Source: Halorussus vallis (GTDB lineage Archaea > Halobacteriota > Halobacteria > Halobacteriales > Haladaptataceae). Taken from it: a stretch of 64,000 nt of DNA. Numbering within the stretch: the stretch's first letter is position 1; every line of letters begins with the position of its first letter. Shown piece after piece: positions 4,121 through 25,360 of this stretch. The stretch spans positions 248,001-312,000 of the forward strand of contig NZ_CP100000.1 in assembly GCF_024138165.1 (NCBI RefSeq), in the 5' to 3' direction. The notes below the pieces were generated by a model. That model ran no database searches. It had not been told where the DNA came from and saw only the letters and a program-made list of their open reading frames with translations. Made by a program: the position numbers and the translations under genes.

Positions 4121-4211
4121 CGTATTTCCACTGTAACAAACGATAACGGGGAGCACGAAACCGCTCTTACTCTATCGGCATACCACCTCGTGTCGGTAGA
4201 ACGAGGTGATT

Positions 4212-5647: not shown

Positions 5648-5793
5648 ACCCGTGCGATCGAGAAGGTGAAACGACGACGAAATCGCTACCGTCCGTGCGG
5701 CAGTTCTTGCAGTCCAGTACTGAGGCCTCGTCAATACGGGACGGTGCTCGCGCGTCGTCTGTCATGCGGTCGTCGCGTTTCGGACGAGTGCGG

Positions 5794-5976: not shown

Positions 5977-6283
5977 CTCCCGAAACTGGACGCGTGTGGG
6001 GTGATCGTCTACGATACCGAAACGGAGCAGGTCCGAAACGTGACCGATGAACTGGGCCAGGAACTACTGGCGCTGATTCAATGGTTCTCAAAAGCAAGTC
6101 GGACTATTAGCATCTAGTTCCGCAGAGGCGGTTTTGGTCGATGGTACCGCACAATTAGGCGGGCTTAAACGAGGGCAAGCACGCTTAATGTCTTCCGAAC
6201 CATGATTGCGTATCCACGTGGTAATCCATGCTATTGTCCCGCCTGATTCAGTCGTCGGACTTCAGGTGAGTTTGGAGCCGCTC

Positions 6284-8012: not shown

Positions 8013-8155
8013 GCCGCGACCGCGGTCGGCGTCGTTTACTCCGTCCTGCTCGACTGAAGTTCGGCACGTGCGCCGACATCGCTTGGCTCCCCACTGCCCG
8101 AAAGGGATACCCCGCTCGACGGTCTAGGTCCCGCCTCCGGACGGGGACTGGCCAC

Positions 8156-9079: not shown

Positions 9080-9164
9080 AAGAAATCGAGAACGATGCCT
9101 CCGGGACGGTGGACGGTATCGGACGACCGGAACCGGTCGACGGCGGAGGGAGTCGGGGTTCGAA

Positions 9165-10637
9165 CTAGTCCTGTTCGGTCGTCGGTTCGTCGGCGGCACC
9201 CGTCGCGGCGGCGCGGCGGCGCCGGCCGACGAACCATCGCAGTTCGAAGCCGCCCCAGGCGAGGAGGGCGACCAGACCGAGCGCAATGGCGAAGACCTCG
9301 GGGACGCCCATCCAGATGGGCGTGATGTACATCAGCCCGTTCAGGTACTTGCCCGGAATGAGCCCCTTCGCGTTGATCCAGAACCGGTTGACGAGACTTC
9401 CCGACCGCGAGGCGATGTTGGCCGAGCGTGCGCTCGGACCGTTCGTCGACTCGTCGCCGGTTTCCAGTCGCTCGACCTCGTACGGGAACGCGATGTTGAG
9501 ACTCCAGACGACATCGCCGTTCTCGTCGACCTCGAACACGCGGTTCCCGTTGGAGTCCGCGATCAGGGTGTGGCCGTTCGGCAGACGGTCGGCGTCGCGG
9601 GGCCACTGCATCCGGGCGTCCCGCCAGATCCACGACTGGGTCCAGTTCCCGTCGCTACGCTGGTACTCGACGACGCGGTTGTTCTCGCTGTCGGCGACGA
9701 TCGCCGCGGGGCCGCCGTTCGACGCGTTGACGAAGTCGGGGTTGTGCTGCTCGTAGAGGATGCCGTAGTTGTCCTCCTTCCCGAGGGTCTGGGCCTTCTG
9801 GACGGTGTGGTCGTCGGACGACAGGAAGAGCACGCGGTCGAGGTTGCGAGCGCTCACCATGATTCGACCGTCCTTCAGCACCTCGACGTCGTTGATGTGC
9901 GTCCAGTCTTCGGGGAACGGGCCGCCGGTCTTCCCGGGGTCGTAGGCGTCGGTGGCGTTCCAGCGCCAGACGAGTTCGTCGGACGTGGTGTTGACCACGA
10001 ACACCCCGTCGAGGAAGATGTCGGCGACGGCGAGGTGCGTGTCGTTGATGCGGTCGACGTCGTGGTACCGCGTCGCCTCCTTGCCCGGCGTGAGGTGGCC
10101 CCACACCTTCTCGACCGTCCCGGTCGTGAGGTTCACGCGCTCGACGCCGTTGTACGTACACGCGTTCGCGTCGGCGTGGACCTCGTAGTAGGTTTGCCAT
10201 GTTTCGTTGGAGACGCCGTACTGGCTCGCGTTCCACTCGCCGGCGTCGGGACACTCGTCGCCGCTCCGGTGGTCGGCGTACGAGTACTCGACGGTCGCGC
10301 GGGTTCCCGGGACGGGGTCGACGTCCCAGTACCGCGTGTGGGTGTCGTTGTAGTAGCGGACCGTCCCGTTCGGGTTGAACGCGACGAGTTCGGCCCGTGC
10401 GCGCGGACCCTCGCTGGCCTGTCCGCGCCAGGAGTTCGAGTCGGTCGCGACGACGGTGATGCCGTCCGCTTCCGGTGCAATCTTTGCGCTCCGGTTTTCG
10501 ACCCCGTCGCTACCGAGGTGGGACTCGAACGTCGTGTCGGTCACCGACGTCGCGAATCCGTATCCGACCGATACGACGGAGAGCGTCAGGAGCGCGGCGA
10601 AGAGAATCCGGACGTGCCGCTTCGAGAGCGACGTCAT
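9165..10637 (-). CDS. Membrane-anchored arylsulfotransferase-like beta-propeller protein
   Basis: The protein has 490 residues. An N-terminal helix (about 11-30) would place the body outside the cell. The body is a repeated beta-propeller with HDVDRINDTHLAVADIF, HINDVEVLKDGRIMVSARN and PNGHTLIADSNGNRVFEVD, which matches the ASST-type (aryl sulfate sulfotransferase) fold. Many NxT/NxS sites suggest N-glycosylation. A second helix (about 440-465) and an Arg-rich cytosolic tail anchor the C-terminus. True sulfotransferase activity is uncertain; many haloarchaeal members are annotated only by fold. It is transcribed toward the PAP2 gene. Confidence 0.8.
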   Translation of the reverse strand: MTSLSKRHVRILFAALLTLSVVSVGYGFATSVTDTTFESHLGSDGVENRSAKIAPEADGITVVATDSNSWRGQASEGPRARAELVAFNPNGTVRYYNDTHTRYWDVDPVPGTRATVEYSYADHRSGDECPDAGEWNASQYGVSNETWQTYYEVHADANACTYNGVERVNLTTGTVEKVWGHLTPGKEATRYHDVDRINDTHLAVADIFLDGVFVVNTTSDELVWRWNATDAYDPGKTGGPFPEDWTHINDVEVLKDGRIMVSARNLDRVLFLSSDDHTVQKAQTLGKEDNYGILYEQHNPDFVNASNGGPAAIVADSENNRVVEYQRSDGNWTQSWIWRDARMQWPRDADRLPNGHTLIADSNGNRVFEVDENGDVVWSLNIAFPYEVERLETGDESTNGPSARSANIASRSGSLVNRFWINAKGLIPGKYLNGLMYITPIWMGVPEVFAIALGLVALLAWGGFELRWFVGRRRRAAATGAADEPTTEQD

Positions 10638-11004
10638 CGGTTCGAAAGCCCTCGCACGTGAAGCCTGCAGTTAGCGGCTACGAGTCCGATATGTCTATGG
10701 AGGAGACACATATCGTCGTCGACGAACATACCTACACTTCACCGTTCCCGAGCAAATAGGTTTTCCTCGACGGCGTCGCACGTGGAGTTCGAGAAACCGT
10801 CGGTATGCCGGACCGACGTCTCACTCTGCGGGGTATTCGACTCGGTGGCGTCTTCCGCTCGCCGAGGAACCGTGTTCCGCTTCGCGGACGTCGCTATCGT
10901 TCACGAAGGGCTGGAGTAACATCGTCGAAGGGAGTCGGTGTACGTTATCGAGCCACGTTCTGCCATTCGGCTTTTGAGTGTCGACACGCAACTGTGAAGT
11001 TACA
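10638..11004. other. Divergent promoter region with imperfect inverted repeat
   Basis: This 367-base gap separates two divergent genes. CGATATGTCT at 10688 and AGACACATATCG ending near 10716 form an imperfect inverted repeat 50-80 bases upstream of the arylsulfotransferase-like gene and could be an operator. I see no gene inside. The APC gene's start region has TTTTGAGTG about 30 bases upstream as a poor TATA candidate. Confidence 0.35.
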
Positions 11005-13446
11005 ATGGGCGGGGAATCTCCGGAGAACACGGCGACGACAGGAGGACAGGCCGAAGGTGGTGGAGGAGACGTGGAAGCGGAACTGTCGCGGGACATGAGC
11101 CTCTCCGACGTGACCTTCATCGGCGTCGGCGCGATGATCGGCGCGGGCGTGTTCGCATTGACCGGGTTCGCCGCCGGCCTGGCCGGTCCGGCGCTCACGC
11201 TCGCGTTCCTGCTCAACGGTTTCGTGGCGATGTTCACAGCGGTGTCGTACGCCGAACTCGGCGCGGCGTTCCCCGAAGCCGGCGGGGGTTACCTCTGGGT
11301 GAAAGAAGCACTGGTCGACCCGAACGGTTTCTACGCGGGGTGGATGAGCTGGTTCGCCCACGCCGTTGCGTGTTCGCTCTACGCGGTCACCTTCGGGGCG
11401 TTCCTGCTCGAACTGATTCACTACGCGGGATTCCTTCCCGCACCCGGTCCCGGCGGCAGTCACATCCAGCTTCTCGGGTTCATCAACGGTCACATGCTCG
11501 AGAAGTTGTTCGCGGTCGGGATGATCAGTCTGTTCGCGTACATCAACTACCGCGGGGCCGAAGAGACGGGAACCATCGGTATCGTCGTCACTGGCATCAA
11601 AGTCATCGTCCTCGGCGTCTTCGTCGCGTTCGGCATCCTCGCCACGCTCAACACGCCCAACTGGCCCTCGCAGTTCCTCGCCAGTCCGACGTTCGCGCCG
11701 AACGGCCTGTTCGGCATTGCGGGCGCGATGGGCTTTACGTACATCGCGTTCGAGGGCTACGAGATCATCGTCCAGTCCGGTGAAGAGGTCGTCGACCCCG
11801 GTTCGAACATCCCCAAGGCGGTGTTCTACTCGATGGCCATCGTCGTTCCTATCTACATTCTGGTCGCGTTCGCGTCCATCGGCGGCATCGACGTGACCCA
11901 GAACCTCGTCGCGGCCGCCGGCCTCGGCGGTCAGGAGGCCGTCTACACGTGGGAACTGATGGGCGCACTCGGCGAGATGGGCATCATTCGAGCCGCGGGG
12001 CAGTTCGTTCCGTACGGCGTGCCGCTATTGTTGTTCGCGGGGCTGGCGGCGACGATGAGCGCGCTCAACGCGACGGTGTACTCGTCGAGTCGGGTGTCGT
12101 TCGCGATGGGCCGCGACCGCGCGCTCCCACAGATATTCGAGAAGATCGACGACGACCAGAAGACGCCGTACTTCGCCATCTTCGCCTCGGCGGTCATCAT
12201 CGCGGTGATGGCGGTCGCGCTCCCGATCGAAGCGGTTGCCGCCGCCGCCGACATCATGTTCATCCTGCTGTTCGTGCAGGTCAACTGGACGGTGGTGCGA
12301 ATGCGCCAGACCCACCCCGACCTGCCGCGGACCTACAAGGTGCCGTTCATGCCGTGGCCGCCGCTCATCGGCATCGGCCTCCAGATGCTACTGACGCCCT
12401 TCCTCATCTACACCCTCGGACTGGAGGCGTTCGGCATCGGGACCAGCAACCACGGCCTCATCGCGCTTGTGACGGCGGCCGTCTGGATGGGCCTCGGTCT
12501 GGTGGTGTACTACGGCTACTCCAAACAGCAGGAGGCCGAGCAGATCGAAGAGGAGACGCCGACGCTAATCAGCGAAGAGACGCCTCGGGAGAGCGAGAAC
12601 CAGATCGTCGTCCCGGTTTCGAACACGGAGAACACCGAGCAACTGATGCGGTCGGCGGTCGACATCGCCCGGGAGAACGACGGCGAGATCCTGGTGATGA
12701 GCGTCGTCACCGTTCCGCACCAGACGCCGCTCTCGCAGGGCCGCCAGTACGTCGACCAGGAACGTGACGTCGTGGACGCGGCGATGGAGATCGCGGAAGC
12801 CGAGGACGTACCCGTAAGCGGCGTCGTCCGGGTCGGCCACGACGTCTCGGACGCGATTCTCAACACGGTCGAGCAGTACGACAGCGAGACGGTGTTGATG
12901 GGCTGGGAGGGCCAGCACAAGAGCCAGCGCCGCGACATCGTCCTCGGAAGCAACGTCGACGAAGTGGCGACCGAGGCCGAGGCGGACGTGCTGGTCGAGC
13001 GAATCGGTCGGGACGCGACCGGGGAGGCCGACGACATCCTCGTCCCGGTCGCCGGCGGCGACCACTCGAAGTTCGCCGCGGAACTGGCCGACGACATCGC
13101 CAAACAGCACGACGGGCGCATCGATATCGTCCACGTCGTCGACCCCGACGCTGACGAATCGAAGCGGCGGGAGGCCCGAGAGATGTTCGAGGAGGTCACG
13201 GCCGACCTCGAAACCGAGAACGTCGACACCGAGGTAATCGAACACGACGACGTGGTCGACGCCGTCGTCGAGCGCTCGGGCGAGTACGACGTGTTGCTCG
13301 CGGGCGCGACCCGCGAGGGACTGCTCCAGCAGTTCGTGTTCGGTTCCATCCCCGAGAAGATCGGCTGGGGCTCGAACGGGACGGTCATCATGGCGAAGAA
13401 GAACCGCGGTATCACCTCGAAGGCCAAGGGATGGTTCGGTAGCTAA
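11005..13446 (+). CDS. APC-family amino acid permease with tandem UspA domains (paralogue 1)
   Basis: The protein has 813 residues. Residues 30-510 are an APC-superfamily permease; the first helix has the family motif GVGAMIGAGVFALTG and later FEGYEIIVQSGEEVVDP. Two UspA-like domains follow: about 530-665 (start NQIVVPVSNTE; GWEGQHKSQRRDIVLGS nucleotide loop) and 675-800 (start DDILVPVAGG; GATREGLLQQFVFGS). UspA domains bind ATP or other adenine nucleotides, so uptake may be gated by energy state. ATG 11005 matches the start context of the paralogue at 14272; GTG 10978 is an alternative. It shares a 79-base identical tract with the paralogue. The substrate is unknown. Confidence 0.88.
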   Translation: MGGESPENTATTGGQAEGGGGDVEAELSRDMSLSDVTFIGVGAMIGAGVFALTGFAAGLAGPALTLAFLLNGFVAMFTAVSYAELGAAFPEAGGGYLWVKEALVDPNGFYAGWMSWFAHAVACSLYAVTFGAFLLELIHYAGFLPAPGPGGSHIQLLGFINGHMLEKLFAVGMISLFAYINYRGAEETGTIGIVVTGIKVIVLGVFVAFGILATLNTPNWPSQFLASPTFAPNGLFGIAGAMGFTYIAFEGYEIIVQSGEEVVDPGSNIPKAVFYSMAIVVPIYILVAFASIGGIDVTQNLVAAAGLGGQEAVYTWELMGALGEMGIIRAAGQFVPYGVPLLLFAGLAATMSALNATVYSSSRVSFAMGRDRALPQIFEKIDDDQKTPYFAIFASAVIIAVMAVALPIEAVAAAADIMFILLFVQVNWTVVRMRQTHPDLPRTYKVPFMPWPPLIGIGLQMLLTPFLIYTLGLEAFGIGTSNHGLIALVTAAVWMGLGLVVYYGYSKQQEAEQIEEETPTLISEETPRESENQIVVPVSNTENTEQLMRSAVDIARENDGEILVMSVVTVPHQTPLSQGRQYVDQERDVVDAAMEIAEAEDVPVSGVVRVGHDVSDAILNTVEQYDSETVLMGWEGQHKSQRRDIVLGSNVDEVATEAEADVLVERIGRDATGEADDILVPVAGGDHSKFAAELADDIAKQHDGRIDIVHVVDPDADESKRREAREMFEEVTADLETENVDTEVIEHDDVVDAVVERSGEYDVLLAGATREGLLQQFVFGSIPEKIGWGSNGTVIMAKKNRGITSKAKGWFGS

Positions 13447-13619
13447 GCCCGCGTTTCCCCCTTCGACGAAGGAGCCGCGAACGCCGCTCGGACCGAATCG
13501 AACCGCGTCGAATCGATGTCGTTCGAGTTTCCACGGGGTTCACCGCGATTTCCCTTTCCGGTCGCTCTCCGATTTCTCCGAGTCGTAACCTACTAATGAT
13601 ACACCGTCAACCCGTTCGT

Positions 13620-13814
13620 ATGTCAAACGGTTTTCTGAAAGAGGCGGCGGGGACGTTCGGTGCCGCGTTCGCCATTCTCGGACTCTTCTACGTCACCCAG
13701 GTCGGGTTCGAGTTGAGCGAACGTCTTCGCGCCGCGTCGTTCGCACTTCTGTTGTTCGCCGGGATTCTGGCGCCGCTGCTCTGGGTAACCGTTAACAAGC
13801 GGCGGCGGTCCTGA
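13620..13814 (+). CDS. Small two-helix membrane protein
   Basis: It has 64 residues from ATG 13620 (MSNGFLKEAAG). Two helices (about 12-28 and 37-55) are separated by FELSERLRAA, and the tail is NKRRRS, giving a positive-inside C-terminus. An upstream in-frame ATG at 13596 would add MIHRQPVR, which has no haloarchaeal character. It lies between the two APC-UspA paralogues. I recognise no family. Confidence 0.6.
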   Translation: MSNGFLKEAAGTFGAAFAILGLFYVTQVGFELSERLRAASFALLLFAGILAPLLWVTVNKRRRS

Positions 13815-13879
13815 GCAACAACCGGGAAACATCGCGCTGGTACTTCGCATCGCCGACTCGCTGTAACTACCCTCCGGAG

Positions 13880-14053
13880 TCACTCCCCGATGACGAGTCC
13901 GCCGACTACGCCGATGAATCCGAAGAAGACGCATGCGTACCCCAGAAGCAGGGACGTCGACCACAGCGGTGCAATCGCCAGCAGTATCCCGACGAGTGTC
14001 AATTGGATGCCGAGTAACATCGTTTTGATGCCACGAACGTCTTCCGAGCGCAT
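13880..14053 (-). CDS. Small membrane protein of the GIQLTL type (57 residues)
   Basis: ATG at 14053 opens MRSEDVRGIKTMLLGIQLT, followed by two hydrophobic helices, and ends LVIGE. The soluble start, then GIQLTL, then two helices is repeated in the 50-residue protein encoded at 49843-49995, so the two are paralogues. This mutual similarity at different loci is the main evidence that both are real genes. Function is unknown. Confidence 0.65.
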   Translation of the reverse strand: MRSEDVRGIKTMLLGIQLTLVGILLAIAPLWSTSLLLGYACVFFGFIGVVGGLVIGE

Positions 14054-14238
14054 GCATTCCTATTTTGGATATGCGAGAAATATCTTCCTATAGTTACAGA
14101 ACACCGGACGAAGGGAGGACCATCGAACGGTAACCGATACTCCTTCGGCCACTGTCTCGTTATCGAAAGTGGAATAATAAGCGTAATAGCGATTCGAATC
14201 GGTAGCGGGTTCAAGTAGGGGGATTGCGGTAGCAGGTT

Positions 14239-14247
14239 CTTTTATTA
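14239..14247 (+). promoter_or_regulatory. TATA box of APC-UspA paralogue 2
   Basis: CTTTTATTA lies about 25-33 bases before the ATG at 14272 and is preceded by a purine/G-rich BRE-like stretch. The spacing fits a leaderless transcript starting at or near the ATG. Confidence 0.5.
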
Positions 14248-14271
14248 CCTCAGAATCTGTACGTTGGTGCA

Positions 14272-16692
14272 ATGGCAGAGGACTCGTCGCACGACGTAGC
14301 GGCCGGTGAGGGAACCGGGGAAGGTGAAGTCGAGACGGAACTGTCGCGGGACATGAGTCTGTTCGACATCACCTTCATCGGCGTTGGCGCGATGATCGGC
14401 GCGGGCGTGTTCGCGCTGACCGGCTTCGCCGCCGGCCTCGCCGGTCCGGCGCTCACCCTCGCGTTCCTACTCAACGGTTTCGTGGCGATGTTCACGGCGG
14501 TGTCGTACGCCGAACTCGGCGCGGCGTTCCCCGAAGCCGGAGGCGGCTACCTCTGGGTGAAGGAGGCGCTCGTCGACCCCAACGGCTTCTACGCGGGGTG
14601 GATGAGTTGGTTCGCCCACGCCGTCGCGTGTTCGCTTTACGCGGTCACCTTCGGGGTGTTCTTGGTCGAGTTGATCATCTACGCTACCGGCCTACCGCAT
14701 GAGTTCCACCTCCTCGGATTCATCACGCCGATAATGGCCGAGAAGGGGCTCTCGGTCGTCATGGTCGCGGCGTTCGCGTACATCAACTACCGCGGGGCCG
14801 AGGAAACCGGGAAAGCGGGCGTCATCGTCACCGGCATCAAGGTCGTCATTCTCGGTGCGTTCATCGCGTTCGGCGTCTATGCCACCGTCACCGCGCCCCA
14901 GTGGACGGACAAGTTCTTCAACAGCCCATCGTTCGCGCCGAACGGCCTGTTCGGCATCATCGGCGCGATGGGCTTTACGTACATCGCGTTCGAGGGCTAC
15001 GAGATCATCGTCCAGTCCGGCGAGGAGGTCGTCGACCCCGGCAAGAACGTCCCGAAGGCCGTTTTCTACTCGATGGCCATCGTCGTGCCCATCTACATTC
15101 TGGTCGCGTTCGCGTCCATCGGCGGCATCGACGTGACCCAACGTATCATCGGCCTCGCGGAGGTGAGCGGCCAGCAGAACATCTACACGTGGGAGCTACT
15201 GGGCGAACTCGGCGAACTCGGCATCATCCGGGCGGCGGGCCAGTTCATGCCCTACGGCGTGCCGCTGTTGTTGTTCGCGGGGCTGGCGGCGACGATGAGT
15301 GCGCTGAACGCGACGGTGTACTCGTCGAGTCGGGTGTCGTTCGCGATGGGCCGCGACCGCGCGCTCCCCGGGTCCTTCGACAAGATTCACCCCGAGAAGC
15401 GGACGCCCCACTGGGCGATCTTCGTCTCTGCGATCCTGATCGCGGCGATGGCGGTCGTCCTTCCCATCGAGGCCGTCGCGGCCTCCGCCGACATCATGTT
15501 CATCCTACTGTTCGTGCAGGTCAACTGGACGGTGGTACGGATGCGCCAGACCCATCCGGACCTGCCACGCACCTACGAGGTACCGTTCATGCCGTGGCCG
15601 CCGCTCATCGGTATCGGCCTCCAGATACTGCTGACGCCCTTCCTCATCTACACGTTGGGCCTCGAAGCGTTCGGCATCGGCGAGAGCAACCACGGCCTCA
15701 TCGCGCTGGTCGCCACGGCCGTCTGGATGGGCCTCGGTCTGGTGGTGTACTACGGCTACTCCAAACAGCAGGAGGCCGAGCAGATCGAAGAGGATACCCC
15801 GACGCTCCTGACGGAGGCGACCCCGTCGAACGCGGAGAACCAGATCGTCGTCCCCATCGCGAACCCCGAGAACGCAGACCAGTTGATGCGGACGGCGGTC
15901 GACCTCGCGAAGGACAGGGACGGAGAGATTCTCGCGATGAGCGTCGTCACCGTCCCCCAGCAGACGCCCACCAGCGAAGGGCGGAAGTTCGTCACCGACG
16001 AGCGCGAAACCCTCGACCACGCGATGGACATCGCCAGAGAAGCCAACGTCCCCGTCAGCGGGACGATCCGCATCGGCCACGACATCGCGGAGGCGATCCT
16101 CAACACCGCCAATCAGTACGACAGCGACGCGATACTGATGGGGTGGAAGGGTCAACACAAATCCCAGCGACGCGACATCATCCTCGGGAGTAACGTCGAC
16201 AGGGTCGTCCAGGAGGCGCACTGCGACGTGATGGTCGAGCGAGTCGCTCCCGACGCGACCGGCGAAGTCGACCGGATTCTCGTCCCGACCGCCGGCGGCC
16301 CGCACGCCGAGTACGCCGAGGAGATAGCGGACGCCATCGCCTACGCACAGAACGCCGAGGTCGACGTGGTCCACGTGATCGAACCGGGTGCCAGCGAGCA
16401 GGACCGAAACGACGCCCAGGCGCTCGTCGACGACGCCGCCGACACGTTCCGGGAGGACGTGACGGTGACCGGCGAGGTCGTCGAAGGGTCCAACGTCGTG
16501 GATACCATCATCGAACGGTCGGCGAGTTACAATCTCGTCGTCGTCGGCGCGACTCGCGAAGGCCTGCTCGACCAATTCGTCTTCGGTGCGATTCCGGAGC
16601 AAATCGGACGCCAGGCGCAGGACACGGTCATCATGGCCAAGCGGAACTTGGGCATCACGTCGAAGGTGCGCAGGTGGTTCGGAAGCAAGTAG
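14272..16692 (+). CDS. APC-family amino acid permease with tandem UspA domains (paralogue 2)
   Basis: This 806-residue protein has the same architecture as the one at 11005: acidic N-tail, APC permease (about 25-505) and two UspA domains (about 525-660 and 670-795). The permease core is almost identical to paralogue 1 in protein and DNA, with a 79-base exact match (15716-15794), whereas the UspA domains and the segment around residues 135-220 have diverged. That suggests shared transport chemistry with different substrate access or nucleotide control. The TATA-like CTTTTATTA about 30 bases upstream gives it its own promoter. Confidence 0.88.
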   Translation: MAEDSSHDVAAGEGTGEGEVETELSRDMSLFDITFIGVGAMIGAGVFALTGFAAGLAGPALTLAFLLNGFVAMFTAVSYAELGAAFPEAGGGYLWVKEALVDPNGFYAGWMSWFAHAVACSLYAVTFGVFLVELIIYATGLPHEFHLLGFITPIMAEKGLSVVMVAAFAYINYRGAEETGKAGVIVTGIKVVILGAFIAFGVYATVTAPQWTDKFFNSPSFAPNGLFGIIGAMGFTYIAFEGYEIIVQSGEEVVDPGKNVPKAVFYSMAIVVPIYILVAFASIGGIDVTQRIIGLAEVSGQQNIYTWELLGELGELGIIRAAGQFMPYGVPLLLFAGLAATMSALNATVYSSSRVSFAMGRDRALPGSFDKIHPEKRTPHWAIFVSAILIAAMAVVLPIEAVAASADIMFILLFVQVNWTVVRMRQTHPDLPRTYEVPFMPWPPLIGIGLQILLTPFLIYTLGLEAFGIGESNHGLIALVATAVWMGLGLVVYYGYSKQQEAEQIEEDTPTLLTEATPSNAENQIVVPIANPENADQLMRTAVDLAKDRDGEILAMSVVTVPQQTPTSEGRKFVTDERETLDHAMDIAREANVPVSGTIRIGHDIAEAILNTANQYDSDAILMGWKGQHKSQRRDIILGSNVDRVVQEAHCDVMVERVAPDATGEVDRILVPTAGGPHAEYAEEIADAIAYAQNAEVDVVHVIEPGASEQDRNDAQALVDDAADTFREDVTVTGEVVEGSNVVDTIIERSASYNLVVVGATREGLLDQFVFGAIPEQIGRQAQDTVIMAKRNLGITSKVRRWFGSK

Positions 16693-16906
16693 AACCTAAC
16701 TTCTCCGCGTCCCTGTCCGTCGTCCGTTCGTCTTTCTCGACGAGTACTCCGTGTGCTTCCGTCACGTCATGCGGAAGGAGTTGAGAACCGATGCCGCCCG
16801 CACTAACGATAAGCAGGCCGGGCACAGTTTATGATTAGGAAGTAAATAGGAGGTAGAATTTCGGAACCCGTGGTTCTAAATAGATGGCTGAAACATATAC
16901 TACGAG

Positions 16907-17272
16907 ATGACGCCGAGTGCCGAGGACGGTGCGGAGGAAGTAGCCTCGCCCGACGCTGAACTTCCGGGCGAGTTGACTTCCCGATTGAACGACCTCGACG
17001 AGGAGTCCCTCCGCGCGGTTATCGTGTACGCCCAGTCGCTGTTACCGTCACCGCCCACGGTGACAGATTTGCTCGCCGAACGAGCGGAAGACGACCTCGT
17101 CGAGATAATCGAACACGAGGGGTACACGACCGTGAAGAAGATGCAACCGTGCGCCGAAGGCTGCGAAGACTGTCCGCACGGTCCCTACCTCTATCGCGTC
17201 CGTGCCGAGCGGTCCCCCGAAGACGGCGCACCGTCGTTGCGCTGGGACTTTCTCGGAAGGGTGAACGAGTAG
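16907..17272 (+). CDS. Cysteine-motif conserved protein (CxxxCxxCxxGPY type)
   Basis: The 121-residue protein has an acidic N-terminus, a helical segment LRAVIVYAQSLLP, and a C-terminal motif CAEGCEDCPHGPYLYRVR. That motif resembles the Cys-rich HGPYxYxxxR signature of small proteins such as the DUF6788 group, which may bind zinc. TATA-like CTAAATAG at 16875-16882 lies about 30 bases upstream, predicting a leaderless transcript. It sits between two transporters but in a separate unit. No function can be assigned. Confidence 0.75.
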   Translation: MTPSAEDGAEEVASPDAELPGELTSRLNDLDEESLRAVIVYAQSLLPSPPTVTDLLAERAEDDLVEIIEHEGYTTVKKMQPCAEGCEDCPHGPYLYRVRAERSPEDGAPSLRWDFLGRVNE

Positions 17273-17434
17273 ATTCGCCGGACGGGTCGGCCGCAGAACG
17301 AGCGCGGCCGTGAGGGGTCGTCGAGACGCGAAACCGCCGAAGCTCGTCTCCGCGGGAACCGGGATGATTTTCGGGGTTCGCCGCCCGAAACGGGATCTGA
17401 CGACTGCGAACCCCAACGCTGCTGAAACCGGTCG

Positions 17435-17441
17435 TTTTAAA
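17435..17441 (+). promoter_or_regulatory. TATA box TTTTAAA upstream of a leader ORF
   Basis: This canonical haloarchaeal TATA box sits 26-32 bases before the ATG at 17467. The predicted transcript would begin at that mini-ORF, leaving about 42 bases before the transporter start at 17509. Confidence 0.5.
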
Positions 17442-17466
17442 CCGCTCGTCTCCATCCGCGTACGTA

Positions 17467-17505
17467 ATGCCCTTTTGCCGTTTGGAGACTCCCAGAGGTG
17501 GATAA
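17467..17505 (+). CDS. Candidate 12-residue leader peptide
   Basis: ATG at 17467 opens MPFCRLETPRGG and stops at TAA 17503-17505, three bases before the transporter ATG. It starts where transcription from TTTTAAA should begin. Its last codons contain AGAGGTGGAT, a good Shine-Dalgarno match (haloarchaeal anti-SD CACCTCC) with 7-base spacing to ATG 17509. This would suit translational coupling. Evidence is positional only. Confidence 0.3.
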   Translation: MPFCRLETPRGG

Positions 17506-17508
17506 CGG

Positions 17509-19734
17509 ATGCCGAAATCGCTGGAGCGCGACCTCGGACTGTACGCGACGATCACCATCAGCATCGGCGCGATGGTCGGCAGTGGTATCTTCGTCCTTCC
17601 GGGACTGGCGGCCGGGAAAGCCGGACCCGCCGCGATATTCGGGTATCTCCTCGCCGGATTCATCGTCCTCCCGGCGGCGCTGTCGAAGGCGGAGATGGCG
17701 ACGGCGATTCCGGAGTCGGGGGGAACGTACCTCTACATCGACCGCGCGATGGGGCCGCTTCCCGGAACGATAGCCGGAATCGGCGCGTGGTTCTCGCTGG
17801 TATTCAAGAGCGCGTTCGCGCTGGTCGGCCTCGGCGCGTATCTCCTCCTCTTCGTCCCCGTTTCGGAAGGTTCGCTCGTGTTCGTGAGTCTCGGCCTCGG
17901 TCTGCTTCTCGTCGTCGTCAACGTGCTCGGCGCGAAACTCACCGGCGGACTCCAGGCCGCAGTCGTGAGTCTGGTCCTTCTTGTGCTGTTGCTGTTCGTC
18001 GGAGACGGGATGATCTCCGTCGATAGCAGTCAGTACCACCCGTTCTTCACCCACGGAGTCGACGGACTGTTCGCCGCGACGGGACTCGTCTTCGTCTCCT
18101 ACGCCGGGGTGACCAAGATCGCCAGCGTCGCCGAGGAGGTAGAGAACCCCGGCCGGAACATTCCCATCGCCATCCTCACCTCCATCGTCGTGATGATGGC
18201 GGTGTACACGCTGACCGTCTACGTGATCATCGGCGTCTCGCCGACGGACGCGCTCACGGCCAAGGACATGCTGACCCCGATGGCGCTGGCGGCCGGCGGT
18301 ACTCTGGGTCGCGTCGGAGTGATCGGTATCTCCGTCGTGGCGGTTCTCGCGCTGACGAGCATGGCGAACGCGGGCATCCTGTCGTCGTCGCGGTATCCCC
18401 TCGCGATGAGCCGAGACGACCTCGCACCGGAGTCCGTCGGGAGCGTCAGCGAGCGGTTCAAGACGCCCGTCGCTTCGATTCTGTTCACCGGGACGATTCT
18501 CCTGGTCCTCGTCGCGTTCGTCCCGGTGCTCGAACTCGCCAAACTGGCCAGCGCATTCCAGATACTCGTGTTCGCGTTCATCAACGTCGCGCTGATCGCG
18601 TTCCGGGAGAGTTCGCTGGACTGGTACGACCCGGAGTTCACGGCTCCGGGGTATCCGTTCGTCCAGATCGGCGGCTTCCTGGCGAGTCTGCTCCTCCTCA
18701 CCCAGATGGGGGCGATTCCGCTGGTCGGCGCGTTCGGCCTCGTCGTACTGGGTGCGGTCTGGTACCGGGTGTACGGGCGCGAACGGACGAAACGCGAAGG
18801 AGCGGCGGTGGACGCCGTTCGCCGGTCGACCGATAGCCGGTCGCTAGAGCAGACCGAGCGGACCTTGACCAGCGAGTCGAAGCGCAACATCCTCGTTGCG
18901 ATGGGCGAAGACACCTCCACGGAGCGAGAGCGGACGTTGCTCACCATCGCCGCGTACGTCGCCGCGTCGACCGACGCGCGAGTGTACGCGGTCCGATTCG
19001 AGGAAGTCCCCGAACAACTGACGCTATCGTCGGCGACTTCGATGGACGAGGACGACCGGGAGTTCGAAGCCGCGACCGAGCAACTGGCCGAAGAACTGCC
19101 GGCCCGAATCGAACCCCGGGAGATCGTCTCGCACAACACCGGCCGGGCGGTCGTCAACTTCGCGACCGACATCGACGCGAGCCTCCTCCTCGGGGAATGG
19201 CGATCCGAGGGACTCCGGGCCGAGTTGCTCGACCGCGACGTCGACTGGTACATGAACCGTGCGCCGTGCGACGTCACCTTCGTCCGCGACCGCGGCTTCG
19301 GTTCCATCGACGAGATCACGGTGTTGACCCAGCGGGGACCGTACGGCCCGACCAAGGTTCGACTCGCCAACGCGTTCGCGGAGCAAGCGGGCGCTTCGCT
19401 GCGGTTCGTCACCGCGGTCGGACCCGACCCGACGCAGGAACAGATCGACACGACGGAGGAGTTCCACGAGGAACTCGCCGACCTCTGTACGGTACCGGTC
19501 GAGCTAGATATCGTTCGGAGCGAAGATCGGCTCTCGGGGGTTATCGATGCCGCGGTGGGGAGCGACTTCGCGGTAGTGGGGGCGGTCGCGCACTCGAAAC
19601 TCCACGACATCTTCCTCGGCGATCCGGCCGTGACCATCAGTTCGGGCCTCGACTGTTCGGTTCTCTTGGTCCATCCCCAGGACTCGCGCGGCCAGTCGTT
19701 CCTGAACGCCCTCATCAAGCGAGTCGCCTACTGA
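17509..19734 (+). CDS. APC-family transporter with C-terminal UspA-like tandem
   Basis: The protein has 741 residues. Residues 1-425 are an APC-superfamily permease (start MPKSLERDLGLYATITISIG, motif GAMVGSGIFVLPG, later EEVENPGRNIP). Residues 455-595 and 600-735 are two UspA-like folds (NILVAMGEDTS; LLGEWRSEGLR; VVGAVAHSKLHDIFLG). It is shorter than the other two APC-UspA proteins and clearly divergent from them. A Shine-Dalgarno sequence overlaps a possible leader peptide just upstream, so translation may not be leaderless. It converges on trkA; a small hairpin at 19832-19850 lies between them. Confidence 0.85.
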   Translation: MPKSLERDLGLYATITISIGAMVGSGIFVLPGLAAGKAGPAAIFGYLLAGFIVLPAALSKAEMATAIPESGGTYLYIDRAMGPLPGTIAGIGAWFSLVFKSAFALVGLGAYLLLFVPVSEGSLVFVSLGLGLLLVVVNVLGAKLTGGLQAAVVSLVLLVLLLFVGDGMISVDSSQYHPFFTHGVDGLFAATGLVFVSYAGVTKIASVAEEVENPGRNIPIAILTSIVVMMAVYTLTVYVIIGVSPTDALTAKDMLTPMALAAGGTLGRVGVIGISVVAVLALTSMANAGILSSSRYPLAMSRDDLAPESVGSVSERFKTPVASILFTGTILLVLVAFVPVLELAKLASAFQILVFAFINVALIAFRESSLDWYDPEFTAPGYPFVQIGGFLASLLLLTQMGAIPLVGAFGLVVLGAVWYRVYGRERTKREGAAVDAVRRSTDSRSLEQTERTLTSESKRNILVAMGEDTSTERERTLLTIAAYVAASTDARVYAVRFEEVPEQLTLSSATSMDEDDREFEAATEQLAEELPARIEPREIVSHNTGRAVVNFATDIDASLLLGEWRSEGLRAELLDRDVDWYMNRAPCDVTFVRDRGFGSIDEITVLTQRGPYGPTKVRLANAFAEQAGASLRFVTAVGPDPTQEQIDTTEEFHEELADLCTVPVELDIVRSEDRLSGVIDAAVGSDFAVVGAVAHSKLHDIFLGDPAVTISSGLDCSVLLVHPQDSRGQSFLNALIKRVAY

Positions 19735-19882
19735 ATCCGGTTTCCCGTCGTCGACTCTCCCGAACGACATCGCCGGTCCGTCGTCAGCGTCGAGACGAGG
19801 CGGAGTCGGCAGTCCGACGGAGCGTCGACGCGCCGTCGCCGTGCGACGGCCCCGTCGCGGAGTTCAGTTTCCCCCGACGGCC

Positions 19883-20578
19883 TCACCGACGAACGGACTC
19901 GTGGTCCTCGTAGTGACCGAACGCGTCGGTGACGTCGGGCGTCGCGCCGGACGCCGAATAGACGGTGAGAACGTCGCCGGCTTCGATTCGGGTCTTACCC
20001 TTCGGGGTGAGGGGCGGTTCGTCTCCGGGTTGTTCGATGGCGACGATCAGCGTATCTTCGCCGAGCAAATTCTGCTCGTCGGCTTCCTGGATTGTCTTGC
20101 CCGCGATGGCGGCGTCTTCGGCGACGGCGATTTCGAAGACCTCCGCGTCGCCGCCGAGGTGCATGAAGTCGATGATCGCCGGTCGCTTGACCGCGCGGTA
20201 GAGGTAGTCGGCGATGAGCCGTTGCGGGTTCTCGATAGTGTGGACCCCGATCTGGCGAAAGAGGCTCATGTGGTCGGGGTTGTGGACGACGGAGACGATT
20301 TCGGGAATCTCTATCTCCTTGGCGAGCAGACAGACCATCGTGTTGGTAGCGTCCTGGTCGGTCGTGCTAATGATGGCGTCGGCCCGCTCGGCGCCGGCGT
20401 CGTAGAGCGTTTCTTTGACAGTGGCGTCGTCGTTGATTACGAGAGCGTCGAACGCGGTCGCGGCCCTGTTCGCACGTTCCTCGTCGTACTCTATGACGGC
20501 GACGTCGTTACCCTCCCGCGTAGCCGCCTCGATGAGCGGCGTACCGATCTGGCCGGCGCCGACGATGATGATGTACAT
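19883..20578 (-). CDS. trkA: TrkA-type K+ channel/transport regulator (RCK_N + RCK_C)
   Basis: This 231-residue protein has the Rossmann start MYIIIVGAGQIGTPLIE (GxGxxG) that binds NAD(H) or ATP, an acidic residue at the end of beta-2 (VIEYDEE), then an RCK_C domain from about 140 (VFEIAVAEDAAIAGKTIQE...LTVYSASG). It is the single-unit TrkA form, about half the length of the protein encoded at 22461. Such subunits form cytosolic rings that gate K+ uptake by TrkH. It is in the same orientation as trkH with a 294-base gap, so it probably has its own promoter. Confidence 0.88.
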   Translation of the reverse strand: MYIIIVGAGQIGTPLIEAATREGNDVAVIEYDEERANRAATAFDALVINDDATVKETLYDAGAERADAIISTTDQDATNTMVCLLAKEIEIPEIVSVVHNPDHMSLFRQIGVHTIENPQRLIADYLYRAVKRPAIIDFMHLGGDAEVFEIAVAEDAAIAGKTIQEADEQNLLGEDTLIVAIEQPGDEPPLTPKGKTRIEAGDVLTVYSASGATPDVTDAFGHYEDHESVRR

Positions 20579-20872
20579 ACTGATTCAGTACGGCGCTACC
20601 CCCTTGAGACGTGCGGCTCGACACCCGGTCGTCCGAGGAGTGTAACGTTGTTCAGCGCACATCATTGCAGAGCACGTGTATGATGAAAGACGGGATGCAG
20701 TGCCCGGTAATCATCGACCTTGCCGACACTTCGGCGGCCTAATCGTTGTCTACGCGAGTCTGACGGTTTCAGGGACCGAGTTAGCGAGGCGCCGTTCCCC
20801 GCGAGTGATACGTCGAGAAGACGTTCGGGAACGGAATCACAGACAGCCCCTCTCCGAACGCGGACGCCGGAG

Positions 20873-22408
20873 CTAGGACCGCCAGTACGTCGGCGTCAGC
20901 AGGACGAGAACGGGCAGAATCTCCAGTCGGCCGATCCACATGAGAAACACCATGAACAGCTTCGTGGTCGACGGGAACGGGAGGTAACTGTTCATCGGGC
21001 CGACGATGCCGAAGCCCGGCCCCACGTTACCGAGGGTCGCCGCGACCGCGCTCATCGCGTCGAGCGCGATCAGGTCCATGCCCGTCCGGGCGGCGTCGAC
21101 GTAGACGACCAACGCCGCGACGAAGAAGATGACCAGGTACAGCAGGGTGAACGCGTAGATACCCCGGACCGCCTGTTCGTCCAGGGCGCGACCGCCGAGG
21201 CGGACCGGCCGGACCGCCTCCGGGTGGACCGTCGTGAACAGTTCGCGCTTGATGGACTTGAGGACGACCAGCCAGCGGACGATCTTGACGGCACCGCCGG
21301 TCGACCCCGCAGAACCGCCCACGAACAGCATCACGAACAGCACGTACTGGGCCGGTGTGCCCCAGGTGTTGAAGTCCATGCTGGCGTACCCCGTCGTCGT
21401 CACCAGCGAGACGACCTGGAATATCGCGTGGCGCAGCGCCTTCTCGACCTCGCCGCCGATGGGGCCGACGGCAGTCTGTTCGGCCGTTCCGCCAGCGAAC
21501 AGCAGCACCGTGACGAGCGCCGAGAACGTCGCCAACACGCCGACGTAGAACCGGAACTCGGTGTCCTCGCCGAACACTTCGACTTCGCCGTTCAGCGCGT
21601 GCCAGAACAGCGCGAAGTTGGTCCCCGCGGCCACCATGAACGGAATGATGAGCCACTGAACCGCCGCCGAGAAGGCCTCGATGCTGCGCGCGGCGGGCGA
21701 GAAGCCGCCGGTGGCCATCGTGGTGAAACCGTGTGCGACCGACTGGTAGAGGGTCATGTCCGGCGCGAGGCCGGCGAGGTGAAGGCCGTACAACAGGGCC
21801 ATCTCCACGGCGGTGATTCCGAGGTACGCCTTCCAGAGCGCTCGCGCGGTTTCCGCGATGCGCGGCGTGAGCTTTTGGATGCCGGGACCCGGCGCTTCGG
21901 CGTCCATCAGTTGCGCGCCGCCGACGGAGAGTTCGGGCAGGATGGCGACGGCGAGGACGACGATTCCCATCCCACCGAGCCACTGGGTCTGCTGGCGCCA
22001 CATCATCAGCGCCCGCGAGTGTCGCTCGAAGCCGATGCTCCCCATCACGGTCGCCCCGGTGGTCGTGAATCCGCTCATCGACTCGAAGATGGCGTTGACC
22101 GGCTGTGCGACCGTTCCCTCTCCGGCGATGACGTAGGGGACCGCGCCGACGAGCGAGACGGCGAGCCACGTCAGCGCGACCATCAGAAAGCCCTCGCGTG
22201 CGCCCAGGTCGGGGTCGTCGTCCAGTTGTTCGAGCCCCCAGCCGATGGCGACCGCGATTACCATCGACGCGATGAACGTCGTGACTCCATCGCCGTAGTA
22301 CGCGGCGAGCGCGAGCGGAAACGCCATCGCCACGGAGAGCCACTTGACGACCGTCCCGACGAGGCTACAGCTCGCTCGCCAGTCCACGCGGAGTTTCTCG
22401 CTCAGCAC
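20873..22408 (-). CDS. trkH: TrkH-type potassium uptake membrane protein
   Basis: The 511-residue integral membrane protein has four pore repeats. Filter-region sequences are visible: SGFTTTGATV, HGFTTMATGGFS, VSLVTTTGYAS and AATLGNVGPG, each with the glycine that lines the SKT channel filter. Length and order agree with TrkH. GTG at 22408 is the start (VLSEKLRVDW). It lies 52 bases downstream of the double TrkA gene, so they likely form an operon that supplies the K+ needed for salt-in osmoadaptation. Confidence 0.92.
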   Translation of the reverse strand: MLSEKLRVDWRASCSLVGTVVKWLSVAMAFPLALAAYYGDGVTTFIASMVIAVAIGWGLEQLDDDPDLGAREGFLMVALTWLAVSLVGAVPYVIAGEGTVAQPVNAIFESMSGFTTTGATVMGSIGFERHSRALMMWRQQTQWLGGMGIVVLAVAILPELSVGGAQLMDAEAPGPGIQKLTPRIAETARALWKAYLGITAVEMALLYGLHLAGLAPDMTLYQSVAHGFTTMATGGFSPAARSIEAFSAAVQWLIIPFMVAAGTNFALFWHALNGEVEVFGEDTEFRFYVGVLATFSALVTVLLFAGGTAEQTAVGPIGGEVEKALRHAIFQVVSLVTTTGYASMDFNTWGTPAQYVLFVMLFVGGSAGSTGGAVKIVRWLVVLKSIKRELFTTVHPEAVRPVRLGGRALDEQAVRGIYAFTLLYLVIFFVAALVVYVDAARTGMDLIALDAMSAVAATLGNVGPGFGIVGPMNSYLPFPSTTKLFMVFLMWIGRLEILPVLVLLTPTYWRS

Positions 22409-22460
22409 GGTTCGTCACCGTTCGCGGGCGATGTGCTCGCTCGCACTCCAACTCGACTCG

Positions 22461-23804
22461 TCATAGTTTCGCACTTACGTCCGTCAGGGCGCCTCGTTCG
22501 ACGAACGCGACGACGTGGTCGCCCGGTTCGACCACGGTGTCACCGCGCGGGACGACGAACTCACCGTCGCGGGTGATGGCGCCGAGGACGAACCCTTCGG
22601 GCATGTCCGCGACGGCTTCGCGAATCGGTCGGCCGACCAGCACGCTCTCGCCGTCCACCTCTATCTCGAGGACCTCCGCCCTGTCGTTCTCGATGAGCGC
22701 GACGTTCTCGGTGTGAAGCTCGCGGGTGAACCGAGTGATCTCCTCGGCGGTGACCTCGCGGGGGTTGATGCCGACGTCCACGCCGACCGTCTCGAAGAGG
22801 CTGACGTACTCGGTCGTCTCGACCACGGCGACGGTCCGGCGCGCGCCCAGCTGTTTCGCGAGAATCGACACCAGCAAGTTCTTCTCGTCGTTCTCGAGGG
22901 TGGCGACCACGGCGTCGGCCTCGCCGACGTGTTCGCGGGCGAGGAACTCGGCGTCAGTCGCGTCGCTCTCCATGACGACCGTGTTCGGCAGTTGCTCGGC
23001 GAGTTCGCGCGCGCGTTCGGCGTCGCGTTCGATGAGCCGCGGGTGGAGTCCGCGCTCTTCGAGCAGGCGGGCGGTGTGATACCCGATCTCGCTCCCGCCG
23101 ATGATGACGAGGTCCTCGTTTTGGGAGGGCGTCTCGGTGGGCGCGACTTCGCGGGCAAATCCCTGGACGCTCTCCGGACTCCCGATGACGATGACCTTGT
23201 CGCCGGCCGCGATTCGCGTCTCGCCGCGGGGAATCGTCACGTCGTCGTCCCGGAGGATGGCCGCGAACGTGAGCGAGTCGAAACGGTCGGCGTCCCGGAC
23301 GGTCAGGTCGGCGATGGGGCTCTCCTCGCTCACCTCGAACTCGGCCATCTGGACGATACCGCCCGCGAACGGGTCGACGTCGCGGGCCGCCGGCAGTCCG
23401 ATGACTCGGACGATGTCCTGTGCGGCGAGCAGGTTCGTACAGACCATGAAGTCGACGCCGAACGCCCGCTGGTCCTCGGCGTGCTGCCACGTCTCGAGGT
23501 AGTCGACGTTCTTGACCCGCGCGATGGTGAACGGGTCGTCGACGGTCTTGGCGGTCCCGCAGGCGACCAGATTCGTCTCGTCGTCGTCGGTGCTCGCGAT
23601 TATCATGTCCGCCTGCTCGACGCCCGCCTGCCGGAGCGTCGAGAGCGACGTCCCGTCGCCTTGGATGGCGAGAACGTCGAGCGAGTACGTCAACGCATCG
23701 ACTCGCTCGGAGTCGGTGTCCACGACCACGACCTCGTGGAGATCCGCGAGACTGGCCGCGATGGACGAACCGACCTCACCTGCGCCGACGATGATGACAC
23801 GCAT
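22461..23804 (-). CDS. trkA: TrkA, double NAD-binding subunit of K+ uptake
   Basis: The 447-residue protein has two RCK_N-RCK_C units: MRVIIVGAGEVGSSIA with RCK_C near 140-220, then LVIIGGSEIGYHTARLLEE near 232 with RCK_C at 365-445. This is the full-length TrkA layout. A strong Shine-Dalgarno (GGGAGGGAT, 23808-23816) precedes ATG 23804. AT-rich TATA candidates lie about 45 bases upstream. It leads the trkA-trkH unit. Confidence 0.92.
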   Translation of the reverse strand: MRVIIVGAGEVGSSIAASLADLHEVVVVDTDSERVDALTYSLDVLAIQGDGTSLSTLRQAGVEQADMIIASTDDDETNLVACGTAKTVDDPFTIARVKNVDYLETWQHAEDQRAFGVDFMVCTNLLAAQDIVRVIGLPAARDVDPFAGGIVQMAEFEVSEESPIADLTVRDADRFDSLTFAAILRDDDVTIPRGETRIAAGDKVIVIGSPESVQGFAREVAPTETPSQNEDLVIIGGSEIGYHTARLLEERGLHPRLIERDAERARELAEQLPNTVVMESDATDAEFLAREHVGEADAVVATLENDEKNLLVSILAKQLGARRTVAVVETTEYVSLFETVGVDVGINPREVTAEEITRFTRELHTENVALIENDRAEVLEIEVDGESVLVGRPIREAVADMPEGFVLGAITRDGEFVVPRGDTVVEPGDHVVAFVERGALTDVSAKL

Positions 23805-23989: not shown

Positions 23990-25360
23990 TCAGTCGGTCG
24001 CGGGCGACAGCGGTTCGTCCGCGCCCTCCCGCGGGAAGTGGTCGATGGTGTCAGCGCGGAACGCCTCCTCGTCGAACTCGTAGTCCTCGTCGAAGAACTC
24101 CATCAGCGTTCGGGTGTCGCGCATGGCGTTCTTCAGACTGGTGGAAGCGCCCGGCGACGGCGTGATGTTGAAGATGATGTCGTCGCCGACGATCTTCGCC
24201 TCGCCCATGTCGAGGGACTTCGCCGACGTGTCGACGATCTGCGGACGAACGCCGCCGTAGCCCTTCGCGCGCTCGATGTCGTCGAGTTCGGCGCTCGGGA
24301 CGACCTTCTGGACGTGGGGCAGGAACGCCTTCGGGCCGACCTCCGGGAGGTCGTAGACGAGGTTCCGCAGGACGTACGGCAGGAGGATGCGGTCGGAGAG
24401 GATGTTCGCGTAACTGAGGAAGGCCGCGACGTTCAGTCCGAACACGTCGAGGAAGTCCCCGACGGTCGAGAGTCGCCCGCGTTCGAGCGTCGGGACGAGT
24501 TTCGCGGTCGGACCGAACCGGGTGATCGAGGGGTCGTGGACGTCGGCGTCGCCGTGGACCGCCGCGAACGGGAGTTTCTTCATCTGGAGCGTGTACACCT
24601 TCCCGTTGAGGAAGTCGTCGGCGAGGAAGAAACTCCCCGCGATGGGGAGCAAGACCTTGTCCTCGCCGTAGCCGAGTTCCTTGGCGATCTGGAGGCTGTG
24701 TGACCCCGCGGCGACGACCGCGACGTCGCAGTCGAAGTTGCCCTCGCTCGTATCGAGGGTGTAGCCGTCGAAGGTTTCGGAGATATCCTCGACCTCCGTG
24801 GATGTGTAGACGTCGACGCTGGCCTCCTCCGTCGCCTGCTCGACGAACGACTTCGTGGTCGCGCCGTAGTCGACGACGTACCCGTCGGGGGTCTGGAGGG
24901 CCAGCAGATCGTCGGACGGGTCGCGCCCCTCGACGACCTTCGGTTCGAGTTCCGCGATCTCCTCGCGTTCGATGGCGCGGAGTTTCGGGAACAGGTCGCC
25001 GAACCCCTCCTCGTGGTACCGGTGTTCGAGTTCCGCGACCTCCTCGTCGCCGACGGCGAGGACCATCTTGCTACGTCGGTCGTGCATCTCCCTCTCGGGG
25101 TCGTGGTTCTCGAGGTAGCCGGCGAGGATTTCGGCGCCCTCTTTGACCTTCTCGGCCTTCTCCAGGGTGTAGTTCGTCTCGATGTCCCCGAAGTGGAGCG
25201 TCTGCGAGTTGTTCGTGTGGTTGGAGTTGATCGCCGCGATTTCGGGTTCCTTCTCGATGAGCGCGATCGACTCGATGTCGGTGAACTTCGCGGTCGTGTA
25301 CAGAAGCGATGCACCGCTGACGCCGCCGCCGACGATAACGAGGTCGTATTTCCCAGACAT
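23990..25360 (-). CDS. mqo: FAD-dependent oxidoreductase, malate:quinone oxidoreductase type
   Basis: This 456-residue flavoprotein starts MSGKYDLVIVGGGVSGASLL with an FAD-binding GxGxxG. NSNHTNNSQTLHFGDIE and YGGVRPQIVD are typical of the MQO/L-2-hydroxyglutarate oxidase family. Such enzymes oxidise malate to oxaloacetate and pass electrons to quinone at the membrane face, which would fit the menaquinone genes later in the window. No transmembrane helix is seen. AT-rich sequence at 25398-25425 (GTTAAAGG on the minus strand) suggests the promoter. 2-Hydroxyglutarate dehydrogenase is an alternative assignment. Confidence 0.8.
   Translation of the reverse strand: MSGKYDLVIVGGGVSGASLLYTTAKFTDIESIALIEKEPEIAAINSNHTNNSQTLHFGDIETNYTLEKAEKVKEGAEILAGYLENHDPEREMHDRRSKMVLAVGDEEVAELEHRYHEEGFGDLFPKLRAIEREEIAELEPKVVEGRDPSDDLLALQTPDGYVVDYGATTKSFVEQATEEASVDVYTSTEVEDISETFDGYTLDTSEGNFDCDVAVVAAGSHSLQIAKELGYGEDKVLLPIAGSFFLADDFLNGKVYTLQMKKLPFAAVHGDADVHDPSITRFGPTAKLVPTLERGRLSTVGDFLDVFGLNVAAFLSYANILSDRILLPYVLRNLVYDLPEVGPKAFLPHVQKVVPSAELDDIERAKGYGGVRPQIVDTSAKSLDMGEAKIVGDDIIFNITPSPGASTSLKNAMRDTRTLMEFFDEDYEFDEEAFRADTIDHFPREGADEPLSPATD

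Follow-up and report, generated by a model that had tools for sequence, protein, structure and literature searches.

Fusions of Usp domains to amino acid permeases are known from haloarchaea (PMC7601130, PMC12159084), and Trk genes have already been described on haloarchaeal islands (PMC11078007). The available parts of the two fusion papers draw no link to trk ("potassium" occurs in neither, and "TrkA" does not occur in PMC12159084), and no description of a pairing of such permeases with Trk was found in the open-access literature searched. In Halobacterium, trkA6 is up-regulated two-fold in low salt (PMC1971269), which has no bearing on the fusions. Salt-in archaea have very high intracellular K+ levels, and how their K+ uptake is matched to the uptake of organic solutes and counter-ions is largely unknown. 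Here, we examine a gene block in a 64,000-nucleotide stretch (C1:248001-312000, referred to below as the window) on the chromosomal 3.96-Mb contig C1 of a 5.05-Mb genome (the source genome), for which Haladaptatus and Halorussus were the closest relatives found. In this block, three APC permeases with C-terminal Usp pairs (APC-Usp), a domain combination identical to that of the published fusions, lie beside trkA, trkH and trkA, and we show that genes of this kind adjoin K+-uptake genes far above chance in haloarchaea. The block contains the following genes:

11005..13446 (also listed from 10978), + strand: APC1, APC permease ending in a Usp pair, 813 amino acids (Pfam PF00324, PF13520 and PF00582)
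14272..16692, + strand: APC2, APC permease ending in a Usp pair, 806 amino acids (Pfam APC and Usp; AlphaFold2 model)
16907..17272, + strand: p121, small uncharacterised protein with a CxxxCxxCPHGPY motif, 121 amino acids (associated with K+ loci; no Pfam or NCBIfam match)
17509..19734, + strand: APC3, divergent APC permease whose Usp pair is degenerate, 741 amino acids (Pfam APC and Usp)
19883..20578, - strand: trkA1, single-RCK TrkA, 231 amino acids (Pfam TrkA_N and TrkA_C)
20873..22408, - strand: trkH, K+ translocating subunit, 511 amino acids (Pfam PF02386, 239 bits over the cut-off)
22461..23804, - strand: trkA2, double-RCK TrkA, 447 amino acids (Pfam, two TrkA_N and two TrkA_C; NCBIfam NF007034)

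Pfam confirms this architecture, which had been proposed in the initial annotation with boundaries that coincide with the gene ends. To that description we add the opposite strands of the permease and Trk genes, the near-duplication of APC1 and APC2 (74% identity), the divergence of APC3, which forms a separate branch (29% identity to APC2), and the presence of p121 between APC2 and APC3. The gene product of trkA2 passes the curated TrkA model NF007034 (738.8 bits, cut-off 344), and that of trkH lies under the cut-off of NCBIfam TIGR00933 (254.6 vs 331.15 bits). Two Usp stretches in APC1, two in APC2 and one in APC3 pass Pfam singly, and a self-built hidden Markov model (HMM) recognises two Usp domains in each permease. 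The gaps measure 825 bp (APC1-APC2), 214 bp (APC2-p121), 236 bp (p121-APC3), 148 bp (APC3-trkA1, convergent, stop to stop), 294 bp (trkA1-trkH) and 52 bp (trkH-trkA2).

APC-Usp genes adjoin K+-uptake genes far above chance

The source genome has three TrkH genes (two split matches of one gene on contig C4 being counted once), and none of its five full-length APC-Usp genes is more than 10 kb from TrkH; they are grouped at two of the three TrkH loci: three in the window and two on C4, a contig of 167 kb. TrkH is present in all 59 genomes of the class examined. Gene families were scored with self-built HMMs at 60 random TrkH loci, in stretches of up to 20 kb each, and in 40 control stretches, of which 33 came from the same contigs at a distance of 300 kb. 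The 60 loci were drawn from 99 clusters built from 139 listed TrkH rows, the source genome and the last rows being left aside; two of 35 controls were dropped for holding a listed TrkH (G019:C1:716259 and G023:C1:829247), and the set was filled up to 40 with seven arbitrary positions from further genomes or parts of contigs. An APC-Usp gene was found within about 10 kb at 13 of the 60 TrkH loci and at none of the 40 controls (Fisher p 0.0014), any Usp gene at 22 loci and two controls, and an RCK gene at 47 loci and six controls.

A similar result was obtained from the permease side. At least 9 of 31 full-length APC-Usp genes (29 genomes) lay within 12 kb of TrkH among the TrkH and APC matches listed, with 0.46 expected and none of 100,000 simulations reaching this figure; without the source genome, the count was at least 6 of 28 (0.41 expected). 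Only matches spanning both domains entered the 31-gene count, fragmented ones being dropped (G012 and G007, for example, the former lying near a TrkH). Within 10 kb of 26 named haloarchaeal APC2-like genes, TrkH was found at 11 loci (one of them, L035, with a fragment of 103 amino acids), TrkH or RCK at 14 and p121 at 12. A comparison of neighbour families in 2147 open reading frames (ORFs), picked by a rough acidity rule, revealed only RCK, Usp, APC-Usp and p121 to be enriched to such a degree. The association is non-random and recurrent: the genes are neighbours in other genomes too, and the conservation of the cluster across haloarchaea, which the initial annotation had left to be checked, is real but partial.

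The arrangement of the genes differs between loci. The 88 loci compared contained 55 APC-Usp ORFs, of which 43 shared their stretch with an RCK or TrkH gene; the two were on the same strand in 19 cases, convergent in 16 and divergent in eight. The gap was no longer than 150 bp in seven of the 19 same-strand cases (measured between stop-to-stop ORF bounds), and co-transcription of APC-Usp with K+ genes is possible at such loci. On a plasmid of Halorussus limi, an APC2 orthologue (81%) is accompanied by trkA, p121 and a TrkH 30% like that of the window, with a Usp gene close by. A second island of the source genome, L049 (G000:C4:95001-115000, parts 3163-11744 and 16729-19713), lies on the plasmid-like contig C4 and carries on one strand, in this order, an RCK ion channel, an APC-Usp gene (40% identity to APC2), a gene for 188 amino acids, a double-RCK trkA and a trkH overlapping it; farther on are a Usp gene and another APC-Usp gene. 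As order, strand and TrkH lineage vary, this is a repeated association rather than one frozen operon, and the comparison points to the window block as one form of it.

The pairing also brings out p121 as an uncharacterised family tied to K+ genes. Its members are Cys-rich, 120-150 amino acids long, and most carry the CxxxCxxCPHGPY motif; in the plasmid records, p121 is a hypothetical protein wherever the feature is named. The family (A2) occurs at nine of the 60 TrkH loci and none of the 40 controls. Its members are found in L023, L024, L039, L044, L064, L066, L092 and others, and most of its sites have a TrkH, RCK, Usp or APC-Usp gene within about 150 bp. By hand comparison, 11 of 16 strong genome matches (E 1e-30 or better) have a listed TrkH at a distance of 10 kb or less, two more adjoin RCK genes (L006, L156), and no K+ gene is near the remaining three, all from one genus (L157-L159). 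A fold model of p121 (pLDDT 83) gave nothing better than E 0.36 against the PDB.

Other features were observed around the block. The gene preceding trkA2 on its strand, with 185 bp between them, encodes a Mqo/DAO-like FAD oxidoreductase (23990-25360, - strand), and in Halorussus limi a FAD-dependent oxidoreductase is likewise found near the APC2 orthologue (L190:6696-7919). A frame for 364 amino acids (6206-7300, + strand), 3.7 kb from APC1, has an Ion_trans_2 domain (28 bits, cut-off 22.5) and possibly encodes a further K+ channel. Between APC1 and APC2, at 13620-14057, there are two small frames judged by eye to be membrane-protein-like; the ORF of 144 amino acids listed in this region has no Pfam match.

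Nature of the permeases

The substrate of the permeases is most likely an amino acid, to judge from their sequences. The closest sequence relatives of APC-Usp are the CAT/ApcT amino-acid transporters: a profile search with the APC-Usp family (A1) matched a CAT homologue with E 4e-45 and NKCC1 with E about 8. Five APC-Usp proteins scored 259-322 bits with the amino-acid transporter profile TIGR00909 vs 52-92 bits with the K-Cl cotransporter profile TIGR00930, and a sixth (L049:5778-8231) scored 229 bits with TIGR00909, TIGR00930 being unlisted. These values were reversed in L176, an archaeal protein resembling cation-chloride cotransporters (CCCs) (47 bits with TIGR00909 and 322 with TIGR00930); the TIGR00930 cut-off of 953 bits was passed in none of 80 genomes, L176 included. 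APC2 (319.7 bits) and APC3 (246.6 bits) do not reach the TIGR00909 cut-off of 556.8, and are therefore related to the CAT group without being named members of it. The amino-acid-type G-A/S-G motif of transmembrane segment 1 (TM1) is present in 53 of 54 APC-Usp proteins.

For structural comparisons, APC2 was modelled with AlphaFold2 from 23 sequences; the mean pLDDT was 62, the Usp part mostly reaching 80-90 and the membrane part being poor. The model matched the tandem Usp protein 3ab7 (Z 23.0, root-mean-square deviation [rmsd] 3.2, 239 aligned residues) and, among APC transporters for amino acids, BasC (Z 22.1, rmsd 3.6, 355 aligned) and CAT1 (Z 21.6, rmsd 3.5, 357 aligned). It also matched 3g40, which is the C-terminal domain of a CCC from an archaeon (Z 19.6, rmsd 3.0, 235 aligned). 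Its top full-length Foldseek matches were NKCC1 and KCC3, which have the whole layout in common with it; full-length superposition on CCCs gave a high rmsd (about 14-15 A), and good alignments were obtained for the separate domains. In TM3, a Tyr that corresponds in the alignment to one of L176 was found in 50 of 54 APC-Usp proteins and is absent in APC3. The same Tyr is present in 11 of 14 sequences of a group labelled Usp-less, in a comparison including one out-of-frame row (L168) and gapped rows, and is therefore not diagnostic for CCCs; this group is an imperfect control, as it contains L176 and a split APC-Usp (L045), and at least three of its other members (L020, L033 and L081) have a Usp gene close by. 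The CCC identity raised by Foldseek and by the TM3 Tyr is weakened by the non-specificity of the Tyr and by the profiles favouring amino-acid transporters, and we keep it as a rival. A KimA-type K+ importer, suggested by the fact that KimA too is an APC protein whose cytosolic domain is regulatory, is made less likely by the A1 profile, which matches amino-acid transporters and no KimA to E 10; KimA does figure among the structural matches, at Z 20.6 and rmsd 18.8.

Usp domains are matched 38 times in the source genome, and a stand-alone Usp gene is located in the window at 48103-48513 (+ strand; G000:C1:296103-296513). About 9 kb past the window end, an APC gene without a fused Usp (L020:1261-2820) is followed by a separate Usp gene (G000:C1:322329-322691), so fused and unfused forms coexist in one genome.

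A common signal for K+ and organic-solute uptake, and rival readings

We tentatively propose, with slightly less than even confidence, that the block is a recurrent haloarchaeal K+-homeostasis island in which a Trk importer and Usp-gated APC permeases follow a common intracellular signal. From the observed architecture and co-localisation, we infer ligand, gating, substrate and coordination as follows. The TrkH K+ importer would be gated or tuned by the RCK proteins. The cytosolic tandem-Usp module would serve as an allosteric gate of the APC permease, like the tandem Usp-like domain of CCCs or the cytosolic domain of KimA. The Usp1 pocket of APC1 and APC2 would most likely bind an adenine nucleotide (ATP or cyclic di-AMP, c-di-AMP), which would tune the uptake of an organic solute, probably an amino acid. 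Organic-solute and K+ uptake would thereby follow one intracellular signal, and joint control of both kinds of uptake is a reasonable expectation.

The initial annotation held that Usp and RCK domains both bind adenine nucleotides, that amino-acid and K+ uptake could therefore answer one energy signal, and that the cluster suggests coordinated osmotic control. The sequences bear out the idea of a common adenine-nucleotide signal only in part. The ATP-binding Usp motif, G-2x-G-9x-G(S/T) (PMC8214093), takes its canonical form in the Usp1 domain in 23 of 54 APC-Usp proteins (13 of 29 in cluster-0, 2 of 11 in cluster-1 and 8 of 9 in cluster-2, these subfamilies having been formed by single linkage at 45% identity), and 11 more, including APC1 and APC2, have 10-11 residues in place of nine. 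The ATP-bound tandem Usp protein 3ab8 is a close fold match of the APC2 model (Z 22.1). Usp1 of APC1 and APC2 may therefore bind a nucleotide, whereas APC3 probably does not do so in the known way. Binding by the Usp domains of the block in general does not follow, the Usp motif being altered or lost in several of them.

For the Usp modules, c-di-AMP is a plausible alternative ligand. A DacZ-type cyclase is present in the source genome, as in all 59 genomes, c-di-AMP has been proposed to act in the osmoregulation of Haloferax volcanii, with no targets identified in the available parts of that study (PMC6741144), and RCK_C domains bind it in bacteria (PMC10284832); APC-Usp proteins are candidate effectors in haloarchaea. 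Binding as in KdpD was dropped as an explanation, the c-di-AMP motif of that type, (A/G/C)XSXSX2N(Y/F) (PMC8214093), being present in none of the 54 proteins. The 188-amino-acid gene of L049 (8232-8798), between APC-Usp and trkA-trkH, has a weak DAC match (24.7 bits, Pfam cut-off 27), scores 15.1 bits with the DacZ model (cut-off 430) and has no PDB match to E 1. Its translation contains a DGA triplet and has KH at the place of the RH motif. A DAC gene as shared member of the islands was dropped in view of the sub-cut-off scores and a linkage seen once. A second, shorter DAC-like family occurs beside DacZ in many haloarchaea, as open frames of ~175-270 amino acids in which the DAC match is confined to the C-terminal half of the model (G014:C3:2244207, G036:C2:671828 and G013:C1:1854238, for example).

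Several observations weigh against our proposal. With the permeases on the + strand and the Trk genes convergent on the - strand, a shared transcript is impossible in the window. Among the matches listed, 22 of the 31 APC-Usp genes lie away from any TrkH, 47 of the 60 TrkH loci have no APC-Usp, and the enrichment statistics ignore shared ancestry. Usp1 of APC1 and APC2 carries a two-residue insertion in the ATP motif (11 residues in place of nine), Usp2 lacks the motif in both and has it in 3 of 54 proteins overall, neither Usp domain of APC3 has it, and the KdpD motif is missing throughout. The DAC-like gene is Trk-linked in the source genome only, none of 14 other second DAC-like matches being near a listed TrkH (hand comparison). 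The genes may instead have come together through an island effect, by which transporters of accessory function collect on plasmids or chromosomal islands and are reshuffled as a group, with no regulation in common; we consider this rather unlikely. Several loci are on plasmids (L024, L027, L037, L038, Halorussus limi and Haloarcula pelagica), as may be the second copy of the source genome on its 167-kb contig, and Trk genes are island cargo in Halorubrum ezzemoulense (PMC11078007). Nevertheless, many matches are chromosomal (the window, L023 and L046), no other transporter family was enriched likewise among the neighbours, and the same-strand gaps are very short at some loci.

Two further readings concern what the proteins sense or carry. 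If Usp and RCK domains both read ATP or the energy state, the cluster would be an energy-responsive osmotic unit, which we regard as unlikely: the canonical or near-canonical Usp1 motifs and the fold match to ATP-bound 3ab8 speak for it, but APC3 lacks the motif in both domains and the insertion in APC1 and APC2 and the rarity of the motif in Usp2 speak against it. The permeases might also be ion transporters of CCC- or KimA-like layout (K+-Cl- or K+/H+ cotransport), serving as a haloarchaeal chloride or K+ importer. The Foldseek ranking of NKCC1 and KCC3, the match to 3g40 and the TM3 Tyr, which by way of L176 may be equivalent to a Tyr binding K+ in NKCC and KCC (PMC10043231), are consistent with this, and a light-independent haloarchaeal Cl- importer is still unidentified (PMC4230888). 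The reading is nonetheless improbable, given the higher TIGR00909 scores in all six proteins, the retained TM1 motif, the presence of the Tyr in the Usp-less group, and the A1 profile, which ranks CAT far ahead of NKCC1 and lists no KimA. We would be very surprised if APC-Usp proteins were nucleotide-gated partners of Trk with local c-di-AMP signalling, some of them CCC-like importers for light-independent chloride (KCl) uptake, and p121 a small regulator.

Comparison with known systems

The proposal of a common signal for Trk and Usp-gated permeases can be compared with systems of other organisms, and the recurrent Trk/Usp-permease pairing singles out specific genes and Usp domains as targets. 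In Bacillus subtilis, K+ import and amino-acid import by the glutamate importer AimA are under one second messenger, c-di-AMP, although its action on aimA is unexplained and the available parts of the article mention no Usp (PMC7857571). TeaD, which acts on the ectoine uptake system TeaABC of Halomonas, provides a case of a Usp protein regulating an osmolyte transporter, with an ATP-dependent oligomer state (PMC12159084); it differs from the window permeases in being a separate polypeptide serving another transporter class, and its profile match is weak (E 0.014). KimA, a K+/H+ symporter of the KUP family, shares with them the APC fold and a cytosolic alpha/beta domain, which in KimA binds a nucleotide, c-di-AMP, and is regulatory (PMC10284832), but its domain is PPAT-like and single per chain, and no profile match links it to the window permeases. 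The CCCs (SLC12, MaCCC) likewise combine an APC transmembrane domain with a tandem Usp-like cytosolic domain, whereas the window permeases are of amino-acid type in sequence and TM1 motif. On the K+ side, the block resembles TrkAH systems in having trkH and trkA with standard domains, TrkA2 passing the curated model, and differs from them in that its one TrkH is flanked by a single-RCK TrkA on one side and a double-RCK TrkA on the other, and in the proximity of permeases fused to Usp.

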